A stretch of DNA of 41,047 nucleotides from an uncultured Roseburia sp. (GTDB taxonomy: Bacteria > Bacillota > Clostridia > Lachnospirales > Lachnospiraceae): assembly GCA_947088345.1 (NCBI GenBank), contig CAMUGE010000030.1, positions 1 to 41,047 on the forward strand, in the 5' to 3' direction. The position numbers and the translations under genes were made by a program. A model generated the notes under the pieces. It was not told where the DNA came from and searched no databases. It was given only the letters and a program-made list of their open reading frames with translations. Of the stretch, positions 22,551-31,462 are shown piece after piece; positions within the stretch are counted from its first letter, which is position 1, and every line of letters starts with the position of its first letter.

Positions 22551-24918
22551 TTATCTTCTTTGGTCAAGTACTTTTCCCATCTCCTCATTCTCCACATATG
22601 CATCCGGCGTCATACGGTCTCCTGTTAATATGATGCTTTGTCCGTATTCTGCGGGATCTGTCGACTCAATATGAAAATAAAGCTCCTCCTTGGAAAGAAT
22701 AAGCGCATCGACAATAAACTGGTTTTCTTCCATCGTTAACACGGTCTCTGCTTCGTCCATTTTATTGATTCTTATGATCCGGTTTCCGGAAAGCGGAAAG
22801 AAATAGATCTGATCGTTCCACACGATACATTGCGAGAAGACCTCACTCCATCCAACCTCTCTGCATGCAAAACCGTCCGGAAAATTTTCTATGTATGTGA
22901 CTTCGTTTGAGAGGATATCCCATCGCACCAGCACCTGCTGATTGCCGCTTAACCAGATGCTGTTTCCCCTGATGCATATCGCATTATATTTTATCCCCCT
23001 GTCTCCTACAGAAACAATTTTAAAATCAAACCGCTTCATATCATAAACTAAAATTTTATCCGGCTCTGAAAGAGGAATAAAAAAAAACACAGCCATATAC
23101 ACATGGACTATATTTATGAACATATTCATATAGACTCTGATTGTTTTTTCTGTCTCTCCACCTGAATTTATCTTCTGCATGGCATGTCTCCATTTGAATA
23201 CACAGTTCTTTGGAATCCCGCTCCCCAAACAGTACTATATTATTTTCCATGACAAGGTGCGCTTTATATCCCCTGGAGAAGAATTTTTTATATGTTAAAG
23301 ATCTTTCATTGATATCATAGATTGCCAAATCATCCGCTTTATATGGGAAAAAATACAGTTTGCCCTTGTATAGTTCCATATCTCTGTATAAAAACGGTTC
23401 TACGGAATTATTTGCAATGCAGACTACTTTCTCATATCTGTGTTCCTTTCGCCTGTATAAAATTCCCTCCCGGGAAAGCACATATGTGACTTCTTTATCC
23501 TGTGCTTTTGCTTCAATCGCAACCGACTGTCTTTCGTCGCTTTTGTACATTGTCTGAATCACGATATTTTTTCCCAGACTTCGAAATAATTCAACCACGC
23601 TGCTGCTGTCGCCATAATAAGTATCACAAATGACAACTGCCCGGTCCAGATCGGCACTGTCATCATAAATTCCCCACCCGGCATTTCTGTACTGTTCTCT
23701 GATTCTTTGATATTGAACCCAAAGCAACGGTCTCATGGAATTAAGCGTACTTTCAATTAACGGATGAGGACGCCAGATCAGCGCCGCCTCCTCTTTCTTC
23801 TTATAAAAAAAATCAAATACACTCTCCATCTTTTCCAGCATGCGTTCATTATTTTTTAACAGCGCATTGATACCTGTATTATAAAAGATTACTTTTTTTC
23901 GGCTTCCATCGGACTTTTGTATGATCTTCTTCCATTCCTCCGGAATTTCCAGTTCCTCTCTTTTTATATTTAAAATCCGGACCACTTTCGGCGAACCAAG
24001 GCCTAATATCTTTTTTTCCAAAAACAGCCTGTCCGTATGTTCTTCGGACAAACCCGCTTCCTGCGCCGCTTTTCTGTATTCATTGATATAAATCTGGCGC
24101 ATTTTCTCCGATTGCACAATCACCTTATGCGCATATACAACGCCGGGCAGAAAACAAAAATGTTTCATCTCGTCAATTGCCGTCTGATTCTGCGGCTCGA
24201 TTTCCTGCAAAACAAAATAGGGAATGTAAACCAGCTGTTCCGTATATTGTCTTAAATTTTTCGCATAATAAAACGGGTGGACACTCGTCACAAAATTCGC
24301 CTCATCATATGGCGAATGAATGTAAATGACATCCGGTCTGCGCGCCTCAAAATCGTATTCGTCGTATCTGGTAATCGGAACATACGCAGGGTATAAATCG
24401 CCCTCATAATGCTCCTTTCGAAAACTTCCATCCGGATTTTTATCATAATACGGGATTGGAATTACATAGGCATCCGTCCCCTCATCTGCATCGGCAGCTT
24501 TCCATACGCTTTCCAGCGAATCCCACATGCTCGCCTTATATGGCAGGAACACGACTTCTCTCCTGTCTTCCGGCATTGTTTCCGTTATGGCGCTGTTTAG
24601 TTTCGCCAACTGCTTTCTGATTTTTTTTGACAGCTTTCTACAGGTATTCTCATTATGAAAATTCATGCTCATCTGATATATCATCTCGCAGTAATCTTCG
24701 AGCATATGTACCATCTGTTCATAGTCCCCGTTTAGTTCTTCTAATATTGTACCGATCCTGATGGCCGACTCCTGACACTGGGTAAACGCTTCCATAATCA
24801 CGGATGATTCTTTTGTTCGAGCGCTGCAAATAGATTCATTCGCCCTGTTTAACAATTCTACTGTACGCAGAATATCTTTTTTTCTGTATCTGTCCACCGT
24901 CTTTTCCCTCTGTGCCAT
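22551..24918 (-). pseudogene. CDP-glycerol glycerophosphotransferase-like protein, frameshifted
   Basis: Two frames form one 788-residue protein. The N-terminal 130 residues are helical/coiled-coil. The central part (VVFLPYKASMWDSLESVW, DVIYIHSPYDE, YIPYFV, AHKVIVQSEKMRQIYI, FYNTGINALL, IWRPHPL, CDTYYGDSSSVVELF) resembles CDP-glycerol glycerophosphotransferases. The C-terminal about 280 residues are beta-rich repeats (LYFFPYKADDLAIYDI, IWLSGNQQVLVRWDI, IYFFPLSGNRIIRI), propeller-like. The first frame ends at 23056 after a run of nine T on the coding strand (plus-strand 23079-23087); eight T would join both frames. It is the first gene of the glycan operon. The start at 24918 has an AAGGG site. 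The truncated product would keep the transferase part but lose most of the propeller. Confidence 0.82.
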
Positions 24919-24965
24919 CCATCCCTTTACAACACTGCTTTCCACAAAATTATCATACGAATTAG

Positions 24966-25033
24966 CCGGGCGTTTCCGCCTGCAGCGCTGTGATCTATGC
25001 ACAGCGCCCGCTTCGCTCCGTGTAAGGCCACGG
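24966..25033 (-). promoter_or_regulatory. Structured leader upstream of the glycan operon
   Basis: Three consecutive perfect hairpins are seen on the transcribed strand: CCGTG/CACGG (25018-25033), GCGCTGTG/CACAGCGC with a 7-nt loop (24985-25007) and GGCG-GAAA-CGCC (about 24966-24979). They lie 50-115 nt before the first gene and are not followed by a T run, so they are not ordinary terminators. They may form a regulatory leader RNA (for example an antitermination or stability element). I see no convincing promoter for the operon between here and the tnpB-like gene. Confidence 0.4.
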
Positions 25034-25092
25034 TCCTGGCATACCGGAAAACCTTTCTCGCTTTGCGCCGCTGCCGTAATTGCACAGAGCAT

Positions 25093-25287
25093 ACAAAACC
25101 TTAAGGATTAGATAATGCCGCCTTTTGCCTGACAAACAGCTCTAAATCTCCGTTTGTCCGGGATTCGGGACTAAAGCGCCCATTTCCCATATTGCCATAA
25201 CATGTCTCCCGAAGATCCGGTTCTCCGGTAAAACTGCCCCACAGTAAGGATCGTGAAACCGTTTATTCTCCGGGGTGCATGGTTCAA
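25093..25287 (-). ncRNA. Possible TnpB-associated RNA region (uncertain)
   Basis: This 195-nt non-coding stretch lies directly 3' of the tnpB-like gene, where functional TnpB genes carry their guide (omega/reRNA) scaffold. It contains small inverted repeats: CCGG-AGAA-CCGG (around 25218), and a 9-bp stem with one G-U pair (25131-25139 with 25150-25158). It ends near the palindrome CCTTAAGG (25099-25106). No gene is seen here. Whether an RNA is made cannot be decided from this sequence. Confidence 0.3.
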
Positions 25288-26667
25288 TCATTCCTGTTTC
25301 AAAACTTGCGAAAAATCCGCTTTGTTGTTTTTATTATATTTCTGTTCTATATTTTTTGCGCCGTTCAAAGGTATAGCGCTCCAATATCCACAATTGCCGC
25401 AGACAAACAGGCCTGCCTCGCGTTTCCCTTTCGCGCCGCAGTTAGAACATACACTTCCCGTCCCTTTTGAATTGATCTCCACAAGTTCAATAGAATTAAC
25501 CTGACATTTATACGTAAGGCGTTCCCTGATATAACCGGAAAACCCTCTTGTCATTTTCCGGTTTGCGGACTTTGAAATAAATTTTGTACGATTCGCCGTC
25601 ACAGGCTTTGTGATGACAATCTTCCCCGGTTTCTCATCCCGGAACATCCGATTGATTTCGGTATTGATAAAACTCTTCGTCTTTGCACGTTCTTTTTCTT
25701 TCTGCCTGTTATATTTTTCCAGGCCCAAATTATTTGCTTCTATATTGTCCGCCTTTTTCCACTCGCCGGCCGTAAGGCTCTCCTGCCATATCATACGCGC
25801 CTTTGTGCGCTCCCGGTTCTTTTCCGCCAGCCGCTCTGTCTCCGGGGCGGTAATGTCATCCAGTGATTTCCCATAAATATTGCCGTTTGAGAGCGTAAAC
25901 ATATCCCGACATCCGATATGGACGTAGATGGTACTCCCGTAATCTTCATGCCTTTTAATTCTGGTTTCCACCGGAATGGCAAGAGCGGCGTCGTTTTCCC
26001 GGATACAGATACGAATCTGCCGGTCGCTTGTGCGGGTGTCTTTTAAGGGAAGTTCCATACGCTGTCCATGAACCCTGGAGGCAATGCAGATAGCGCCGTC
26101 CCTGTAGGAATAACCGCCTGGCGTTATACTGAAAACATCGCTTCTGCCCACAGTTGGTTTTGTAAGATATTTTCTGGTCAGCCTGCAGAGGATGTTGTTG
26201 AGCCTTTGCACATCAATGTCAAGTCCCTGTGCCTTTTTAGGCATTTCATATGGCTGGCGGTTTAATACAGCGGCGTATATCCGATCCAGTTTCAGCACTG
26301 TTCTAAGATACAATCTGTCCGCATCACTTAAGTTTTCATTTGACGTAATTCTAACCTGAATCCTGTTTTTCAGAACGCCCCACATTCCTTTGATATCCGA
26401 CACAGCTTCCACAATTGCAGGATCGAAATATGCGCTTGGCAGACAAAGGCGTGCCCGTATGCCGCTGTGACGCACCTCGCCCATAATGTCATAGACCGGC
26501 GTCAGCCGGGAAAGGCTTTTTATGCCCGAATACCTTTCAAACGTATAATTTTTCACACAATGATAGTCCGCGGCAATCTCCCTCAAAAATTGCATTGTTT
26601 CTTCCGGCAGTATCTTTGTGTACTGCCAGACAGTTTTTGTCAGTGTATCGCCAGATTTTGCAGCCAT
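25288..26667 (-). CDS. TnpB-like protein lacking RuvC catalytic residues
   Basis: A 459-residue protein with the TnpB/IS605 OrfB C-terminal architecture: a RuvC-like strand (IYVHIGCRDMFTLSNGNIYG, 247-266), KIVITKPV (349-356), a four-Cys zinc finger (C407, C410, C423, C426) and a final LNGAKNI. At the three positions where active TnpB has Asp, Glu and Asp (G-I-D-L-G, I-V-I-E-D, and D-x-N-A-A) this protein has His250, Thr353 and Pro433. It is therefore predicted nuclease-dead, like TnpB-derived repressors, though the function is unproven. The frame is intact over its whole length, arguing against simple decay. The ATG at 26667 has GGTGG and GGAG sites; 26709 is an alternative. It lies between the invertible segment and the glycan operon. 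Confidence 0.78.
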   Translation of the reverse strand: MAAKSGDTLTKTVWQYTKILPEETMQFLREIAADYHCVKNYTFERYSGIKSLSRLTPVYDIMGEVRHSGIRARLCLPSAYFDPAIVEAVSDIKGMWGVLKNRIQVRITSNENLSDADRLYLRTVLKLDRIYAAVLNRQPYEMPKKAQGLDIDVQRLNNILCRLTRKYLTKPTVGRSDVFSITPGGYSYRDGAICIASRVHGQRMELPLKDTRTSDRQIRICIRENDAALAIPVETRIKRHEDYGSTIYVHIGCRDMFTLSNGNIYGKSLDDITAPETERLAEKNRERTKARMIWQESLTAGEWKKADNIEANNLGLEKYNRQKEKERAKTKSFINTEINRMFRDEKPGKIVITKPVTANRTKFISKSANRKMTRGFSGYIRERLTYKCQVNSIELVEINSKGTGSVCSNCGAKGKREAGLFVCGNCGYWSAIPLNGAKNIEQKYNKNNKADFSQVLKQE

Positions 26668-26711
26668 ATCCACCCGTCTCCGTATAAAACCTGTAACAGA
26701 TCCAAACATTT

Positions 26712-26738
26712 TTTCGCAGAACTGTCTATTCTGCGAAA
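26712..26738. repeat. Left recombination site, inverted 10-7-10
   Basis: Arm TTTCGCAGAA (26712-26721), spacer CTGTCTA, arm TTCTGCGAAA (26729-26738): the two arms are perfect inverted complements. This is the layout of a tyrosine-recombinase core site. Positions 26718-26738 are a perfect 21-bp inverted repeat of 28244-28264. It sits 32 nt past the recombinase stop and just before the tnpB-like gene. Confidence 0.85.
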
Positions 26739-26769
26739 CCTAATGCGAAACGGGAATTTTATGTATTTT

Positions 26770-27891
26770 CTATGCTGCCCGACCACAAATCTGACCATAA
26801 AAACCAGGCAGTCTGCCAATCTGTTCTCTCTTTGCTTCAAGCGTCGGATGCACATAACAGTTTAACGTAATCTTTACATCAGAATGACCTAATATCTCGC
26901 TGAGACTCTTTATATCCATACAATTTTCCATACAATTTGTAGCAAAGGTGTGGCGAAGTATGTGAAAATTTCTTCTTTCAATCCCCGCTTCTTTCAGAAT
27001 TTGCTTAAACCGGTATTGCATTGTTCTAGGTTCTAACGGTTTCATGCCGCCAAAAACATAGAGCTGTCTGTTCTGAAGCCCCCTGAGAAGATCCATCATT
27101 TCTTCAGAAACAGGAATCGTTCTTTTCGACGTACCGCTCTTTGGGGCCGACTCCATCAGGGCGCTTTTTTTCCTTTGATTTTCGGTCGCTATTCGCTGTA
27201 CCGTATGGTTTACAGAGATTGTAATATTTTTTTCATCCAGATCTGTCCACCTTAAGGCGCAAAGCTCGCCAAGGCGCAGTCCTGTATACATACACAGAAG
27301 AACTGCGGTTATATACAAATCCATATCCTTATATAGATTAGAAAACAATTTTGCCTGCTCCGGTTTGGAAAAAGTCTCAATCGGCTTTTTTTCGGTTTTT
27401 ATGAAAGCCCTCTCAACCTTTTCGACACAGATATGATAATGTCGGGCGGCATAGCGCAAAATCTGGTTTAAAACGCAGCAAATACTTTTTTGCAGACTTA
27501 CAGATAAACTGCTCCATCGTTCTGATGCCTGACAGATCGCACTGATTTCAGTAATCCGGCAGGACCCCAAAAAATCAGACAAATGTTTCCGGTAGATTAA
27601 TTCATATTTTATATAGGTTGAATATTTCCTTTTTTCTCTTACTTCCTCTAACCATTCTTTTGCTGCCTGTGAAAATAAAAGACTGCCGCCGGAATCTTTG
27701 CCGGAGTACATCCTGCATTCATATTTCTGTAAAAGATTTTTCTGAGTGGTCAATTTATCCTTGACTTCATGATAAGTATGACCATACACCGAACGATACA
27801 TATTCTTTTTTCGTATTTCATCGTAAACCTTGTACCTGCCCTCCCATCTGCCGTCGATACGTTTTCTGATATTCTCTCCATGTCTTCCCAT
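26770..27891 (-). CDS. Tyrosine recombinase/integrase
   Basis: A 373-residue tyrosine recombinase. The N terminus (MGRHGENIRKRIDGRWEGRY) is the arm-binding/AP2-like region. A core-binding SAM-like domain spans about 70-160, and the catalytic domain is complete: R206 (TGLRLGEL), K251, H310 and R313 (HILRHTFAT), H336 (ILGHSDV) and nucleophile Y346 (NCYVHP). The ATG at 27891 has GGAG 6 nt upstream; codons back to 27966 derive from a dispersed repeat. The gene is enclosed by inverted recombination sites, so it probably drives inversion of its own segment; an integrase of a mobile element is the alternative. Transcription through its stop would reach the tnpB-like gene, as no terminator separates them. 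Confidence 0.93.
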   Translation of the reverse strand: MGRHGENIRKRIDGRWEGRYKVYDEIRKKNMYRSVYGHTYHEVKDKLTTQKNLLQKYECRMYSGKDSGGSLLFSQAAKEWLEEVREKRKYSTYIKYELIYRKHLSDFLGSCRITEISAICQASERWSSLSVSLQKSICCVLNQILRYAARHYHICVEKVERAFIKTEKKPIETFSKPEQAKLFSNLYKDMDLYITAVLLCMYTGLRLGELCALRWTDLDEKNITISVNHTVQRIATENQRKKSALMESAPKSGTSKRTIPVSEEMMDLLRGLQNRQLYVFGGMKPLEPRTMQYRFKQILKEAGIERRNFHILRHTFATNCMENCMDIKSLSEILGHSDVKITLNCYVHPTLEAKREQIGRLPGFYGQICGRAA

Positions 27892-27897
27892 AATAAT

Positions 27898-27932
27898 CTC
27901 CATTTCTGCATTGCGAACACAGTTCGCATTCG
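27898..27932. repeat. Dispersed repeat copy 1 with internal palindrome
   Basis: About 33 bp (CCATTTCTGCATTGCGAAC, then GTTCGCATTCG after 3 variable bases) recurs at 30274-30306 in the same orientation with two differences. The centre is palindromic (TGCGAAC/GTTCGCA), and a looser similarity continues for about 20 bp (TTAT-CG-ATA). It lies immediately upstream of the recombinase start. Confidence 0.6.
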
Positions 27933-28168
27933 CCTTATGCGCATAAGCGAATTTGCGGCAAGCCATTTATGGCTTTGCATTTTACAGACACAAATCGCCT
28001 TGTATAAATTTATCTTTCACATTAAATCTCATTTCTGTGTATCCTATGTATGCCTTTGATTTTGACCATAAATGTGACCACAAACCATCATGATACTGTT
28101 TTTCTTTTCAAGTAAGGAAAAAAGAACCATAAAATCCAAATGTAACCGACAAAAATGAAAAAAACATA

Positions 28169-28197
28169 TTGCAAAATCATGTTGTGTATCGTATAGT
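28169..28197 (+). promoter_or_regulatory. Outward-facing sigma-70 promoter inside the invertible segment
   Basis: TTGCAA (28169-28174), a 17-bp spacer and TATAGT (28192-28197) form a near-consensus promoter. It reads rightwards out of the segment across the right recombination site. There is no gene in the next 400 bp for it to serve in this orientation. Confidence 0.7.
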
Positions 28198-28243
28198 AAA
28201 CGTGTTGTTATTTAGAAATTCTTTTCAATATTATACTTCGTTA

Positions 28244-28270
28244 TTTCGCAGAATAGACAGTTCTTGGCAA
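28244..28270. repeat. Right recombination site
   Basis: Arm TTTCGCAGAA (28244-28253), spacer TAGACAG (28254-28260) and a diverged outer arm TTCTTGGCAA that keeps 7 of 10 positions. It is the inverted partner of the site at 26712-26738; arm, spacer and four outer bases are identical over 21 bp. The inner arm being perfect and the outer arm less so is normal for recombination sites with unequal flanks. Confidence 0.85.
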
Positions 28271-28583
28271 TGAACCGAGTATAAAAACTTTCTTATTTCC
28301 CCATCCGCCGCACCAAATGTAGATTGCGTCAGCGACTACTTTCTTTTTGCAGGAATATTATATTATTATTTTTTCTGAAAGAAGTCACATTCACGCGAAA
28401 GCGTATCAAGGTCTTTCCGGCAGAAAAACAAAGTGAACAAGACCGCTTCAACTTCCGGGTCGGCTTGGCTGGCTTTTCTCTCATTCTTGTAGGATTCGCA
28501 CGATTTGTCCTGCCGAGTGTGCCGACACTCTGTTCATGGATTATTCATTCATGCGTTTGTCTTGGGCATAAAATGTCCTTTCA
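28271..28583. other. Gene-free stretch right of the switch
   Basis: About 310 bp with no supported gene. One open frame of 87 codons (28324-28587) begins with TTG, lacks a ribosome site and has no recognisable product. The DNA may be remnant sequence of a former gene, but I cannot identify it. Confidence 0.5.
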
Positions 28584-28612
28584 TTGACTTTCATGCCATA
28601 TCGTGGTACGAT
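28584..28612 (+). promoter_or_regulatory. Promoter of the TPR-like/ankyrin operon
   Basis: TTGACT (28584-28589), a 17-bp spacer and TACGAT (28607-28612), about 115 bp before the ATG at 28727. It fits a sigma-70 promoter well and has the right orientation. Confidence 0.65.
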
Positions 28613-28726
28613 AATTTTTAACAGTGTAAAACATAAAAGAAAAAACATTTCAGAGAGAAACCGGCAGAACAGGACACTTTTTTACCACAGAGTTCCTGCC
28701 CTGGGACAAAAGACAGGTTGGTAAAA

Positions 28727-29210
28727 ATGGATTTTTTAAGAAGCACAAAAGCTACAGAACCGTTCGCAGAAAATGACGATCTGCTGCACCGGGCGCTGTC
28801 AGCGGGCGATCTGGCTGCTGACAAGGCCGCTTTTGGAACTCATGAAAACCGGTATACTGCCTGCCGCAACTGCTTTTAACTGCGGGCTTTGCCTCTACCG
28901 ATTGGAGGAATTTGAAAAAGCGCTTTCCATATTAAAGAATGCGGAGCAGTCACTGGGCGTGCCGCCTGAACCGGATACACCTGAAAAAAGACTGTTCTTG
29001 CAGGCACTGCAAAAAAATCCGCAGGTATTCCTACAGCCGTTAGACCCAAAAGGAGGCAGCGGATTGGAGCGTTACTCTCTGATTCGGGTCCGCTGGCTTA
29101 CAGCATTCTGTCTGCTTCGTTTGGATCGACGACAGGAAGCCGCCTCTGCAATCCGTTTTCTGGCCCAATACCAAATCGAACTGAAAGAAGGAGAATCACA
29201 ATGCAATTAG
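28727..29210 (+). pseudogene. Small helical/TPR-like gene, frameshifted
   Basis: The ATG at 28727 (AGGTTGG upstream) opens MDFLRSTKATEPFAENDD and reads LLHRALSAGDLAA before running into a stop at 28877-28879. The next frame continues LLELMKTGILPAATAFNCGLCLYRLEEFEKALSILKNAEQSL, a TPR-like helix pair, and stops at 29210. Removing one base, most simply the A at 28821, gives a continuous 160-residue protein. The stop overlaps the ankyrin gene's start, so the two were co-translated. Function unknown. The shift may be real or a sequence error. Confidence 0.65.
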
Positions 29211-30184
29211 ACAATATGCTGCTGCAAGCCTGCAAGAATAATCAAAAGAGCGTCGTACAGACTTTTTTAAAACGGGGTGGAGTGGATGTAAATAAACGAG
29301 ATGAATCCGGCAACACTCCGCTGATCTATGCATGTCAGAAAAGCGCCAGAGATCTGGCAAAGCTGCTGCTTGAACACGGGGCAGACGCAGGTCTTGGCAA
29401 TCAGAAAAACCGGATGCCGGTTCATTTTGCTGCGGAATCCGGCAATATCCAAATTATCAACATGCTGATTGACGCAGGCGCCGATGTCAACTGCACCGAC
29501 AACAACGGTATAACCCCGCTTATGCTGTTAGCTCAAAACGGAAAAACAGACGCCGCTTTAAAACTTCTGAAAAATCCGGACACAGATATCAGCATTAAGG
29601 ATAACGACGGCCGCATGGCCATAGACTATGCAACTTCCGCAGGACTGAAAGAACTGGTAAAAGCTCTCTCGGAAGCCAAAGAAGAGCATGCCGACACATA
29701 CGGAAACACATCGCTCCATCATGCATGTTGGAACGAACAAAGCGAAGTGGTAAAAATCCTGCTGGAAAAAGATCTATCCAGTGTCAATAAACCAAACGAC
29801 GAAGGAGAATCCCCGCTGATTCTGGCGACTGAAAAATCCAATCTGATGATTGTGGAACTTCTGCTGGCCGCCGGCGCGCAAGCCGATTATGCCAATTCAA
29901 ACGGTGTCCTGCCGTTACATATTGCAGCAGACAAGGGCGATCTTTTCGTTGGAAAAGCGCTGCTGGCCGCCGGCGCAGGTATCGACAAAAAAACATCTGA
30001 CGGGCAGACTCCGCTGATACTGGCAGCCAGGAACGGCAAAAATGACTTTACCGCTATGCTGATTGAAATGGGCGCCGATGTCAACAGTGTTGACAACGAC
30101 CAGCACAGCGCCATGTATTATGCCTCGGAATCGGGATATTCCGAGATTGTGGAACAGCTGCTGATAGCTGGAGCAGAAAATTAA
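29201..30184 (+). CDS. Ankyrin-repeat protein
   Basis: A 327-residue protein made almost wholly of ankyrin repeats, about nine, each about 33 residues, with the familiar GNTPLIYACQKSARDLAKLLLEHGAD and GQTPLILAARNGKNDFTAMLIEMGADVN patterns. There is no signal peptide or membrane segment, so it is probably a cytoplasmic protein-binding scaffold; the partner is unknown. AAGGAG lies 7 nt before the ATG, inside the end of the preceding gene. A terminator follows the stop within 20 nt, so it closes a two-gene operon. Confidence 0.92.
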   Translation: MQLDNMLLQACKNNQKSVVQTFLKRGGVDVNKRDESGNTPLIYACQKSARDLAKLLLEHGADAGLGNQKNRMPVHFAAESGNIQIINMLIDAGADVNCTDNNGITPLMLLAQNGKTDAALKLLKNPDTDISIKDNDGRMAIDYATSAGLKELVKALSEAKEEHADTYGNTSLHHACWNEQSEVVKILLEKDLSSVNKPNDEGESPLILATEKSNLMIVELLLAAGAQADYANSNGVLPLHIAADKGDLFVGKALLAAGAGIDKKTSDGQTPLILAARNGKNDFTAMLIEMGADVNSVDNDQHSAMYYASESGYSEIVEQLLIAGAEN

Positions 30185-30200
30185 AAACAGGCCTCAATCA

Positions 30201-30262
30201 AAAGGCAGCTATGTTATGATTCACGGCGCAAAAGCCGCTTGTCGTAACACAGCTGCCTTTTT
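30201..30262 (+). terminator. Intrinsic terminator after the ankyrin gene
   Basis: AAAGGCAGCT (30201-30210) pairs with AGCTGCCTTT (30251-30260), extended by ATGTTA/TAACA pairing and an inner GGCG/CGCC-like stem, and ends in TTTTT. Confidence 0.8.
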
Positions 30263-30272
30263 CAGATAAATT

Positions 30273-30306
30273 CCCATTTCTGCATTGCGAACGCCGTTCG
30301 CATTCG
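30273..30306. repeat. Dispersed repeat copy 2
   Basis: Second copy of the repeat described at 27898-27932, here between the ankyrin terminator and the SPFH promoter. The centre TGCGAAC-GCC-GTTCGCA is a perfect palindrome around 3 bases in this copy. Confidence 0.6.
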
Positions 30307-30348
30307 TTTTATACGGATAGAAGTACTTCTCACACGAACCCTCGAATC

Positions 30349-30376
30349 AGGCCTTTTCAGGCCTTTCATTTTTTAT
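30349..30376 (+). terminator. Weak terminator-like hairpin
   Basis: AGGCC (30349-30353) and GGCCT (30360-30364) form a short stem followed by a T-rich run. It lies about 40 bp upstream of the SPFH promoter and may back up the terminator at 30201-30262. Confidence 0.4.
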
Positions 30377-30401
30377 TTCTTTTCTGTTTTTCAAATAATA
30401 C

Positions 30402-30430
30402 TTGCAATGCACAGATCGAAGTGATATTAT
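30402..30430 (+). promoter_or_regulatory. Promoter of the SPFH-RHH operon
   Basis: TTGCAA (30402-30407), a 17-bp spacer, then TATTAT (30425-30430), 37 bp before the ATG at 30467. Confidence 0.7.
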
Positions 30431-30466
30431 AATGATATCAATCAGATACGAATGGAGGAATTATCT

Positions 30467-31462
30467 ATGAAAGAAAAAATTTTAACCGGCAAAAAACATG
30501 GAATGTCCGCGCTTCTCTTTTCCCTGCTGCTCTATGCAGTGGCAATCACCGGCATCATAATTGGCGCCTTTATGGTGGAAGACGGCGGCAATCCCGCTCT
30601 TATGATTGTATCGATCATCGTAGTATCGACTGCCTGGATTCTCTGGCCGGGGCTTCATGTATTAAAACCGCAGGAAGCGCTTGTGCTGACACTGTTCGGC
30701 AAATACATCGGCACCATTAACGAACCGGGCTTTTACTTTACCAACCCGTTCTGCAGCGCCGTTAACCCTGCCGCAAAGACAATTTTAAGCCAGAGCGCCG
30801 ATATCTCGACAAATCCGGCTGCCGCAAATATTGCCGCCGCAGAGCTTGGCAAAAAGATGTCGTTAAAAATTATGACGCTAAACAACAGCCGCCAGAAAAT
30901 CAACGATTGCCTTGGCAACCCGATCGAAATCGGCATTGCAGTTACATGGAAAATTGTGGATACGGCAAAAGCCGCTTTTAACGTAGACAATTACAAAGAA
31001 TTTCTCTCGCTCCAGTGTGACAGCGCACTGCGCAACATTGTACGTCTCTATCCGTATGACGCCGCTCCCGACGTTGACACAACAGGCGACGGTATTGCAG
31101 ACGACGGCAGTCTGCGCGGATCAAGCGATATTGTTGCAGGCAGAATCCGGGATGAGATTCAGCAGCGTGTTAACGAGGCGGGAATTGAAATTTTGGAAGC
31201 GCGCATCACCTATCTCGCCTATGCGACAGAAATTGCAGCCGTAATGCTGCAGCGCCAGCAGGCATCGGCAATTATCGACGCGCGCAAAATGATAGTAGAC
31301 GGAGCAGTCGGCATGGTGGAAATGGCATTGGAGCGCTTAAACGAAAATCAGGTTGTCACGCTGGACGAGGAACGCAAAGCCGCTATGGTTTCAAATTTAC
31401 TTGTCGTCCTCTGCGGCAACCACGACGCACAGCCTATTGTCAATTCAGGCAGCCTCTATTGA
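30467..31462 (+). CDS. SPFH/band-7 domain membrane protein
   Basis: A 331-residue protein with two N-terminal membrane helices ([21 protein letters not shown] and [17 protein letters not shown]) followed by an SPFH/band-7 domain ([65 protein letters not shown], and a helical [12 protein letters not shown] end). SPFH proteins form membrane-microdomain scaffolds; the specific client is unknown. The ATG at 30467 has GGAGGA 9 nt upstream; an ATG at 30452 overlaps that ribosome site and is rejected. The small RHH gene starts one base after its stop. Confidence 0.92.

Follow-up and report, generated by a model that had tools for sequence, protein, structure and literature searches.

A probable self-contained tyrosine-recombinase promoter switch upstream of a polysaccharide operon led by a nuclease-dead TnpB-like gene in an uncultured Roseburia sp.

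We analysed a 41,047-nucleotide stretch of DNA from an uncultured Roseburia sp. (GenBank assembly GCA_947088345.1, contig CAMUGE010000030.1). This stretch, hereafter the window, is the entire contig C30 of a 3.05-Mb genome in 80 contigs (L-numbers denote fetched loci, G-numbers genomes, with G000 the window's own, and C-numbers contigs). Positions 26712-28270 very probably form a self-contained phase-variation switch, or inverton, in which a tyrosine recombinase gene and an outward-facing promoter lie together between two inverted recombination sites, upstream of a surface-polysaccharide operon. This reading is well supported by inverted sites that recur around related recombinases, by the outward promoter, and by the presence of both orientations among relatives; from these we infer that the segment also flips in the window strain. 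The original prediction, of an invertible promoter with its recombinase inside the flipped segment, is supported by the comparison with relatives. The parts of the cassette are as follows.

26712-26738, plus strand: left recombination site, TTTCGCAGAA-CTGTCTA-TTCTGCGAAA, with a 10-bp arm, a 7-bp spacer and a 10-bp arm; the arms are perfectly palindromic
28244-28270, plus strand: right recombination site, inverted, TTTCGCAGAA-TAGACAG-TTCTTGGCAA; the spacer reads as the exact reverse complement of the left spacer, and the outer arm is degenerate
26770-27891, minus strand: tyrosine recombinase, 373 amino acids from a conserved MGRHGENI start; the annotated open reading frame (ORF) extends to 27966
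26780-26797, plus strand: arm-type direct repeat pair CGACCA-N6-TGACCA, overlapping the final recombinase codons
28063-28080, plus strand: arm-type direct repeat pair TGACCA-N6-TGACCA, at the promoter end
28169-28197, plus strand: predicted outward sigma-A-like promoter TTGCAA-17-TATAGT, 9/12, currently facing away from the glycan operon

The two sites share an inverted repeat of 21 bp (26718-26738 and 28244-28264) that is 100% complementary, giving the inverted sites with an identical crossover spacer that characterise a tyrosine-recombinase inverton. A search of the 41 kb for two 9-bp arms separated by a 7-bp gap, with at most three mismatches, returned exactly these two sites. Because the chance expectation for this pattern is 0.09 and none of the shuffles (0/100) gave two matches, we conclude that the inverted pair did not arise by chance, and the predicted sites, with their 21-bp perfect match, identical 7-bp spacer and 10-bp arm, stand as described. 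Across the whole 3.05-Mb genome, a stricter site pattern matched both cassette sites and nothing else, and a looser pattern (2 mismatches) gave one extra match, on contig C15. The exact 21-bp site was absent from the viral contigs searched.

The recombinase matches PF00589 (6e-27) and PF14659, placing it in the tyrosine family and not among Hin-type serine recombinases. Since relatives begin MxRxGENI or similar, translation most likely begins at residue 26 of the annotated ORF. Residues R206, H310, R313, H336 and Y346 are invariant across 15 aligned recombinases, and we take them to have the catalytic roles of the R-H-R-H-Y set of integrase-family enzymes. With the PF00589 match, an intact frame and all five family residues present, the proposal of a complete tyrosine recombinase gene between the sites is confirmed. 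The motif TGACCA-N6-TGACCA (at most four mismatches) lies near the recombinase-3′ end in 13/15 elements and near the promoter end in 7/15. These 20 arm repeats share one orientation, there are a few stray 4-mismatch matches elsewhere (two of them reversed), and shuffled elements gave 0.14 matches each. Such repeats fit a lambda/Tn916-type integrase with an arm-binding domain.

We observed the same architecture in many relatives, and those close relatives that have names are Lachnospiraceae. The recombinase was found at E ≤ 1e-60 in 10 of 60 genomes (own included), and the window's genome has a further paralog on contig C46. Scanning genome_contigs with a single protein gave no match. Among genus recombinase loci, which were fetched both by recombinase and by site pattern and are thus not an unbiased count, 15 of 22 (window included) show an exact inverted pair enclosing the recombinase, in elements of 1.2-1.95 kb. 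At the others, the recombinase lies beside a 363-bp pair (L028) or without a pair by the exact-pair test (six loci, one of which, L019, was later found to carry a site); a further locus, L059, has a short inverted pair and no recombinase. The genus site pattern TTTCGCAGA-N9-TCTGCGAAA (2 mismatches) occurred in 24/62 genomes (own included) compared with 2/62 for the reversed control, although single matches among the 24 may still be chance. For a wider set, we took the 80 loci listed by a profile scan of named genomes, in which 561 candidate stretches encoded relatives. An inverted pair of at least 14 bp surrounds the recombinase in 53 of these 80 loci, and one of at least 18 bp in 48. By the same test, mismatched left and right regions gave pairs in 11/800 cases and shuffled left regions in 0/400. 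Palindromic arms (at least 8/10) are present in 41 of the 53 paired loci, and these 41 have 36 different spacers, each within its own exact repeat, a figure that is partly selected in that the 14-bp threshold favours matching spacers. For its two sites to recombine, an element needs spacers that match within the pair, as these locus-specific ones do. Separately, three contigs of G029 (C117, C135 and C137) and L105 share one site and spacer (TTTCGCAGATTGCGCACGTCTGCGAAA), with one C135 copy one base off, so that recombination between these loci is conceivable.

Inverted repeats could instead be the ends of a minimal mobile element, a tyrosine-recombinase transposon with Tn916-like ends that was inserted here by chance. 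The arm-type direct repeats inside both ends, together with the arm-binding-like N-terminus of the integrase, resemble the ends of Tn916. In addition, an identical inverted repeat, TTCGTAGAGTACATTACTCCACGAA, occurs at identical offsets at L131, L132 and L135, in Butyricicoccus, Blautia and Agathobaculum records, which suggests recent transfer of a larger segment. By contrast, the spacers match in inverted, not direct, orientation, and the elements are found at an unchanged position ahead of homologous first genes whichever way they face; for these reasons we disfavour a simple mobile element, although no search was aimed at empty sites or target duplications. The outer arms are also often conserved, and the elements recurrently carry an outward promoter. 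We consider a chance insertion of this kind very improbable.

The outward promoter recurs with the sites. In 14/14 genus elements (14 of the 15 had a findable recombinase start for promoter placement), the top-scoring sigma-A-like match facing outward has its two boxes 17 bp apart and sits 18-69 bp inward of the recombinase-5′ site. Of 68 elements compared with 200 shuffles each, 43 had an outward promoter at p ≤ 0.05; the spacing was 17 bp in 56, a spacing that the score mildly favours, and the outward score exceeded the inward score in 64. The "near-consensus" promoter of the original prediction is accordingly upheld as to its presence, with 9/12 matching bases and a position and spacing that recur in relatives; taken alone, the window's copy is marginal.

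This promoter would serve the genes on the left of the cassette only after inversion. The relevant features there are as follows.

25288-26667, minus strand: nuclease-dead TnpB-like (TldR-like) protein, 459 amino acids, gene 1 of the operon, with a likely start behind a GGAG-like ribosome site
24952-25120, minus strand: conserved RNA-like block, a candidate omegaRNA/guide-RNA scaffold, ending in TATGAT, with variable sequence from 24951 downward
286-24918, minus strand: surface-polysaccharide cluster with glycosyltransferases, RgpF, WbsX, PGA_cap, a DegT aminotransferase and methyltransferases (Pfam)

Measured to likely starts, the first gene outside begins close to the site, at ~45 bp in the window and ~26 bp at L018. 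Since ~45 bp leaves little room for a fixed promoter, the promoter of the first operon gene most likely lies inside the cassette. This fits the earlier suggestion that the operon has no convincing promoter of its own and would acquire the cassette promoter by inversion. As also predicted, the promoter now points right, away from the glycan cluster and into a stretch with few genes up to ~28.73 kb. On our reading the glycan operon is currently OFF, in a state that is possibly leaky, since there is no clear terminator between the recombinase and the operon.

We compared orientation among relatives, a check proposed with the original prediction, after orienting all loci by the recombinase. The opposite-orientation loci described here are paralogs and relatives, not one clone in two states. 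On two contigs of isolate CAJTDK (L118 and L120), the flanks are swapped (91.7% over 2530 bp and 93.9% over 245 bp) and similarity breaks at the inverted repeats. Similarly, L054 and L055, from one assembly (G065), have their operon-side flanks on opposite sides (93.4% over 1127 bp). In Lachnospiraceae COE1 (L103), a TnpB-like gene of the window type (71% over 1216 bp) lies on the promoter side, whereas in the window it lies on the recombinase side. For dead-TnpB first genes, most of them retrieved through the recombinase and not an unbiased sample, we counted three on the promoter side (L018, L101 and L103) and eight on the other side (two without a detected pair). The other recurrent first gene encodes a DEAD-type helicase with repeated HA (helicase-associated) domains (L023, L027, L054, L055, L060, L118 and L120; identified by Pfam at L027 and L118 and by similarity at the rest); it is on the promoter side at three loci (L055, L060 and L120) and on the other side at four. 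A sugar transferase follows this helicase at L027. Separately, G033:C42 ends 1 bp past its site. Breaks at repeats hint at mixed orientations; we did not use them as evidence because any repeat can break an assembly.

Based on these data, we propose that the tyrosine recombinase would bind both inverted core sites, that its N-terminal domain probably binds the TGACCA arm repeats, and that it would catalyse inversion of the 1.5-kb segment bearing its own gene. In the current orientation the promoter would fire rightward, leaving the glycan operon OFF or with no transcription beyond read-through from the recombinase transcript. Once inverted, the promoter would fire across the site into the dead TnpB-like gene, the RNA-like block and the polysaccharide operon (ON).

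Several observations weigh against a functional inverton in the window. The outer arm of the right site is degenerate, and the window locus itself was seen in one orientation only, the opposite orientations being those of homologous loci, including loci within one assembly. That assembly, G065, is listed as 7% contaminated, and L054 and L055 might stem from different strains. In the wider set, 27 of 80 relatives have no inverted pair of at least 14 bp (at six of them a contig end is too near for the test), and clear palindromic arms are wanting at 12 of the 53 paired loci. The window promoter reaches only p = 0.06 against shuffles, and promoters are weak at other dead-TnpB elements too (L018, 0.08; L098, 0.145; L100, 0.095; L101, 0.455; L103, 0.14). 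Lastly, the lack of a clear terminator between recombinase and operon might make the OFF state leaky.

The degenerate outer arm (TTCTTGGCAA) also raises the alternative that the cassette is a former inverton, now locked, in which the recombinase or the right site is dead and the operon is served only by recombinase read-through. A sibling switch in the same genome that appears to be split by other DNA is in keeping with such decay. On contig C15, a second dead TnpB gene stands behind one site and a promoter half-element cut after recombinase codon 3 (L063, 9021-9285); on contig C46, a recombinase gene is followed by a site with the same spacer as the C15 site (L019, 7892-9060). The new sides carry a resolvase-like recombinase and a DNA-methyltransferase-like gene (named by eye), and the two contigs look like one element split by inserted DNA. 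The C15 locus is probably ON, because its promoter faces its operon. In the window, by contrast, the recombinase frame is intact with all five catalytic residues, the inner arms and spacers are identical, and outer-arm differences are found in other family members too. We therefore judge a locked element to be quite improbable, and an inverton that can still flip remains our preferred interpretation.

The original prediction treated the tnpB-like gene as a bystander, a view that we qualify: the gene is a member of a conserved family of nuclease-dead TnpB proteins, has an adjoining conserved RNA-like block and is a recurrent first gene behind such switches. The protein has a predicted TnpB fold, and no D or E occurs at RuvC positions 1, 2 and 3 in 27/27, 27/27 and 26/26 readable members (L207 has no residue at the third); some members have an acidic residue 1-2 positions off at RuvC-III. 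The catalytic residues of RuvC are thus lost, in contrast to the active triad of an IS200/IS605 transposon TnpB, and the protein resembles TldR, the nuclease-dead RNA-guided repressors, as far as predicted fold and motifs go. We found it in 5/62 genus genomes and 9/299 family genomes (own included in both), at 21 loci, of which 20 were examined and one fragment (G368:C75) was left out. An inverted pair lies directly upstream in 7/20 (the window, G032:C52, G004:C239, L201, L203, L204 and L208), six of them with the recombinase inside. Variants occur in 3/20: the split element of C15, a 24-bp pair with its halves ~100 bp apart (L205), and a small pair (L206). No upstream pair was present in the fetched flank at 10/20; these include G029:C45, where the contig stops within the gene and leaves no flank, G009:C207, with one isolated site-like match 1.1 kb upstream, and L207, where a 16-bp pair farther away was not counted. 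At L206 (3500-9112), a 24-bp inverted pair, next to which lies a small tyrosine recombinase, is followed by a csrA-like ORF, a flagellin-like ORF and the dead TnpB gene (the three genes named by eye); judged from these names, this is a flagellin version of the same arrangement.

The conserved block is present 3′ of the dead-TnpB gene in 9 copies. Ten chosen pairs form in 9/9 copies, three of them with two-sided change, a number also reached by 68/500 shuffles, and in four copies folding was no better than in many shuffles (z -0.65 to -1.47). Rfam gave no match in the window from 24600 to 28800 and a single sub-threshold match elsewhere, in L206. One additional stem was dropped, being unpaired in 4/9 copies as aligned, and a pseudoknot was considered and left out. 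A noncoding-RNA pattern search of the window's genome recovered the C15 copy only; the window's own block was missed because its gap is longer.

If the block is a guide-RNA scaffold, the 16 bases after TATGAT would be the guide. We searched for matches to these bases with at most two mismatches, leaving the C15 guide out of the genome-wide search. Non-self matches numbered 6 for the window in its own genome, 1 for G009, 2 for the G029 C140 copy and 4 for the G032 C52 copy in G000 and G032, a total of 13 compared with 19 for reversed controls (1 in the window search and 18 in the G032 C52 search). On ORF maps, four of the 13 lie between ORFs (L088, L177, L178 and L181) and the rest inside ORFs, except that at L090, which is in a small, questionable ORF that precedes an epimerase-like gene; none of the 13 is a convincing target. 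We also compared guides with upstream regions at 18 loci, one of which has no recognisable end. The 17 guides scored a mean of 9.8/14 against their own regions and 9-11 for 14 sibling pairs, and the unrelated mean was 10.0 (maximum 13). Because own and sibling scores are no better than unrelated ones, we see no self or sibling targeting.

Two accounts of the first gene can be weighed on these data. In one, the dead TnpB and the RNA block would act in cis on the operon transcript, by antitermination or attenuation in the manner of NusG-type LoaP/UpxY, and not as an RNA-guided DNA-binding repressor. The position of the RNA-like block inside the operon, between genes 1 and 2, favours this, as does the guide-target search with its lack of a convincing target. 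A NusG-like first gene beside a related recombinase at L147 and L157 points the same way, though neither locus has an inverted pair that we could find; these genes recall the UpxY/LoaP antiterminators. Action in cis is possible, if somewhat doubtful. In the other account, a single flip would turn on both a surface polysaccharide and an RNA-guided dead-TnpB repressor that silences rival surface loci, in several Lachnospiraceae genera, as an RNA-guided counterpart to the UpxY/UpxZ logic in Bacteroides. This fuller scheme is rather unlikely in our estimation, slightly the more so because folds of single copies do not support the RNA block. RNA guidance as such is nonetheless a strong lead from the sequence comparisons.

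The left-hand cluster is devoted to glycan synthesis by Pfam (18 of its ORFs scanned). The description of a "20-gene glycan cluster" is hence right as to glycan identity and only approximate as to number, there being 26 minus-strand ORFs of at least 90 amino acids, some of them overlapping. On the other flank, TPR-like, ankyrin-repeat and Band-7 genes occupy 28773-31462, preceded by a separate promoter-like site; the cassette promoter as it now faces might also feed these genes.

28584-28612, plus strand: promoter-like site TTGACT-17-TACGAT with extended TG, ahead of the TPR/ankyrin genes

At L161, L159 and L162, related switches precede very large ORFs and not glycan genes; the L161 ORF is an LRR_5 protein by Pfam, and those of L159 and L162 look secreted by eye.

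Taken together, these predicted switches form a large family in commensal Clostridia, each a self-contained unit with its own tyrosine recombinase. In the window's genus, candidate loci for phase-variable polysaccharides and surface proteins can be located from sequence by the recognisable site TTTCGCAGA-N9-TCTGCGAAA. The analysis further shows glycan operons, probably phase-variable, whose first gene encodes a nuclease-dead TnpB protein. If these proteins are RNA-guided regulators, the choice of surface sugars in gut Lachnospiraceae would be under RNA-guided control.

The Bacteroides capsule systems, in which Tsr is also known, have UpxY as a regulatory first gene and Mpi as a trans-acting serine invertase of short segments. 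They share with the window ON/OFF promoter inversion before surface-polysaccharide operons and a regulatory first gene, and differ in phylum, in the trans-acting serine enzyme and in the short segments. Mpi of the Bacteroides invertible capsule promoters is cited in PMC5903667, which presents a recombinase inside its own invertible segment as an occasional case, exemplified by Hin in S. Typhimurium. As in the cassette, the recombinase and an outward promoter of the Hin H-segment of Salmonella both lie within the flipped segment (PMC5903667). Hin is a serine recombinase controlling flagellin, whereas here a tyrosine recombinase with arm-type repeats lies upstream of polysaccharide operons. Clostridial invertons near tyrosine recombinases (for example inverton group 139, invertase group 35), with orientation shifts in cultures, are reported in PMC11892184. 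They too combine Clostridia with a tyrosine recombinase near an invertible segment, but two group-139 examples measure ~255 bp end to end (PMC11892184), whereas the segments described here span 1.1-1.95 kb and enclose the recombinase. In the literature searched, outside which most subscription papers fall, we found no report of dead TnpB in polysaccharide operons or of a self-contained tyrosine family. The nearest precedent found is the hin-csrA-tldR-fliC arrangement: PMC13418256 describes TldR and csrA-tldR loci in Oscillospiraceae with hin and promoter inversions of ~120 bp upstream, and its main text has no words beginning polysaccharide, glycosyl or lachnospir. The csrA-like, flagellin-like and dead-TnpB genes of L206 are counted alongside this likeness. 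Both systems place a promoter inversion upstream of a nuclease-dead TnpB locus; there, the targets are flagellins and Hin lies beside a ~120-bp inverton (PMC13418256), whereas here the loci are polysaccharide operons and the switch is a self-contained tyrosine-recombinase inverton.
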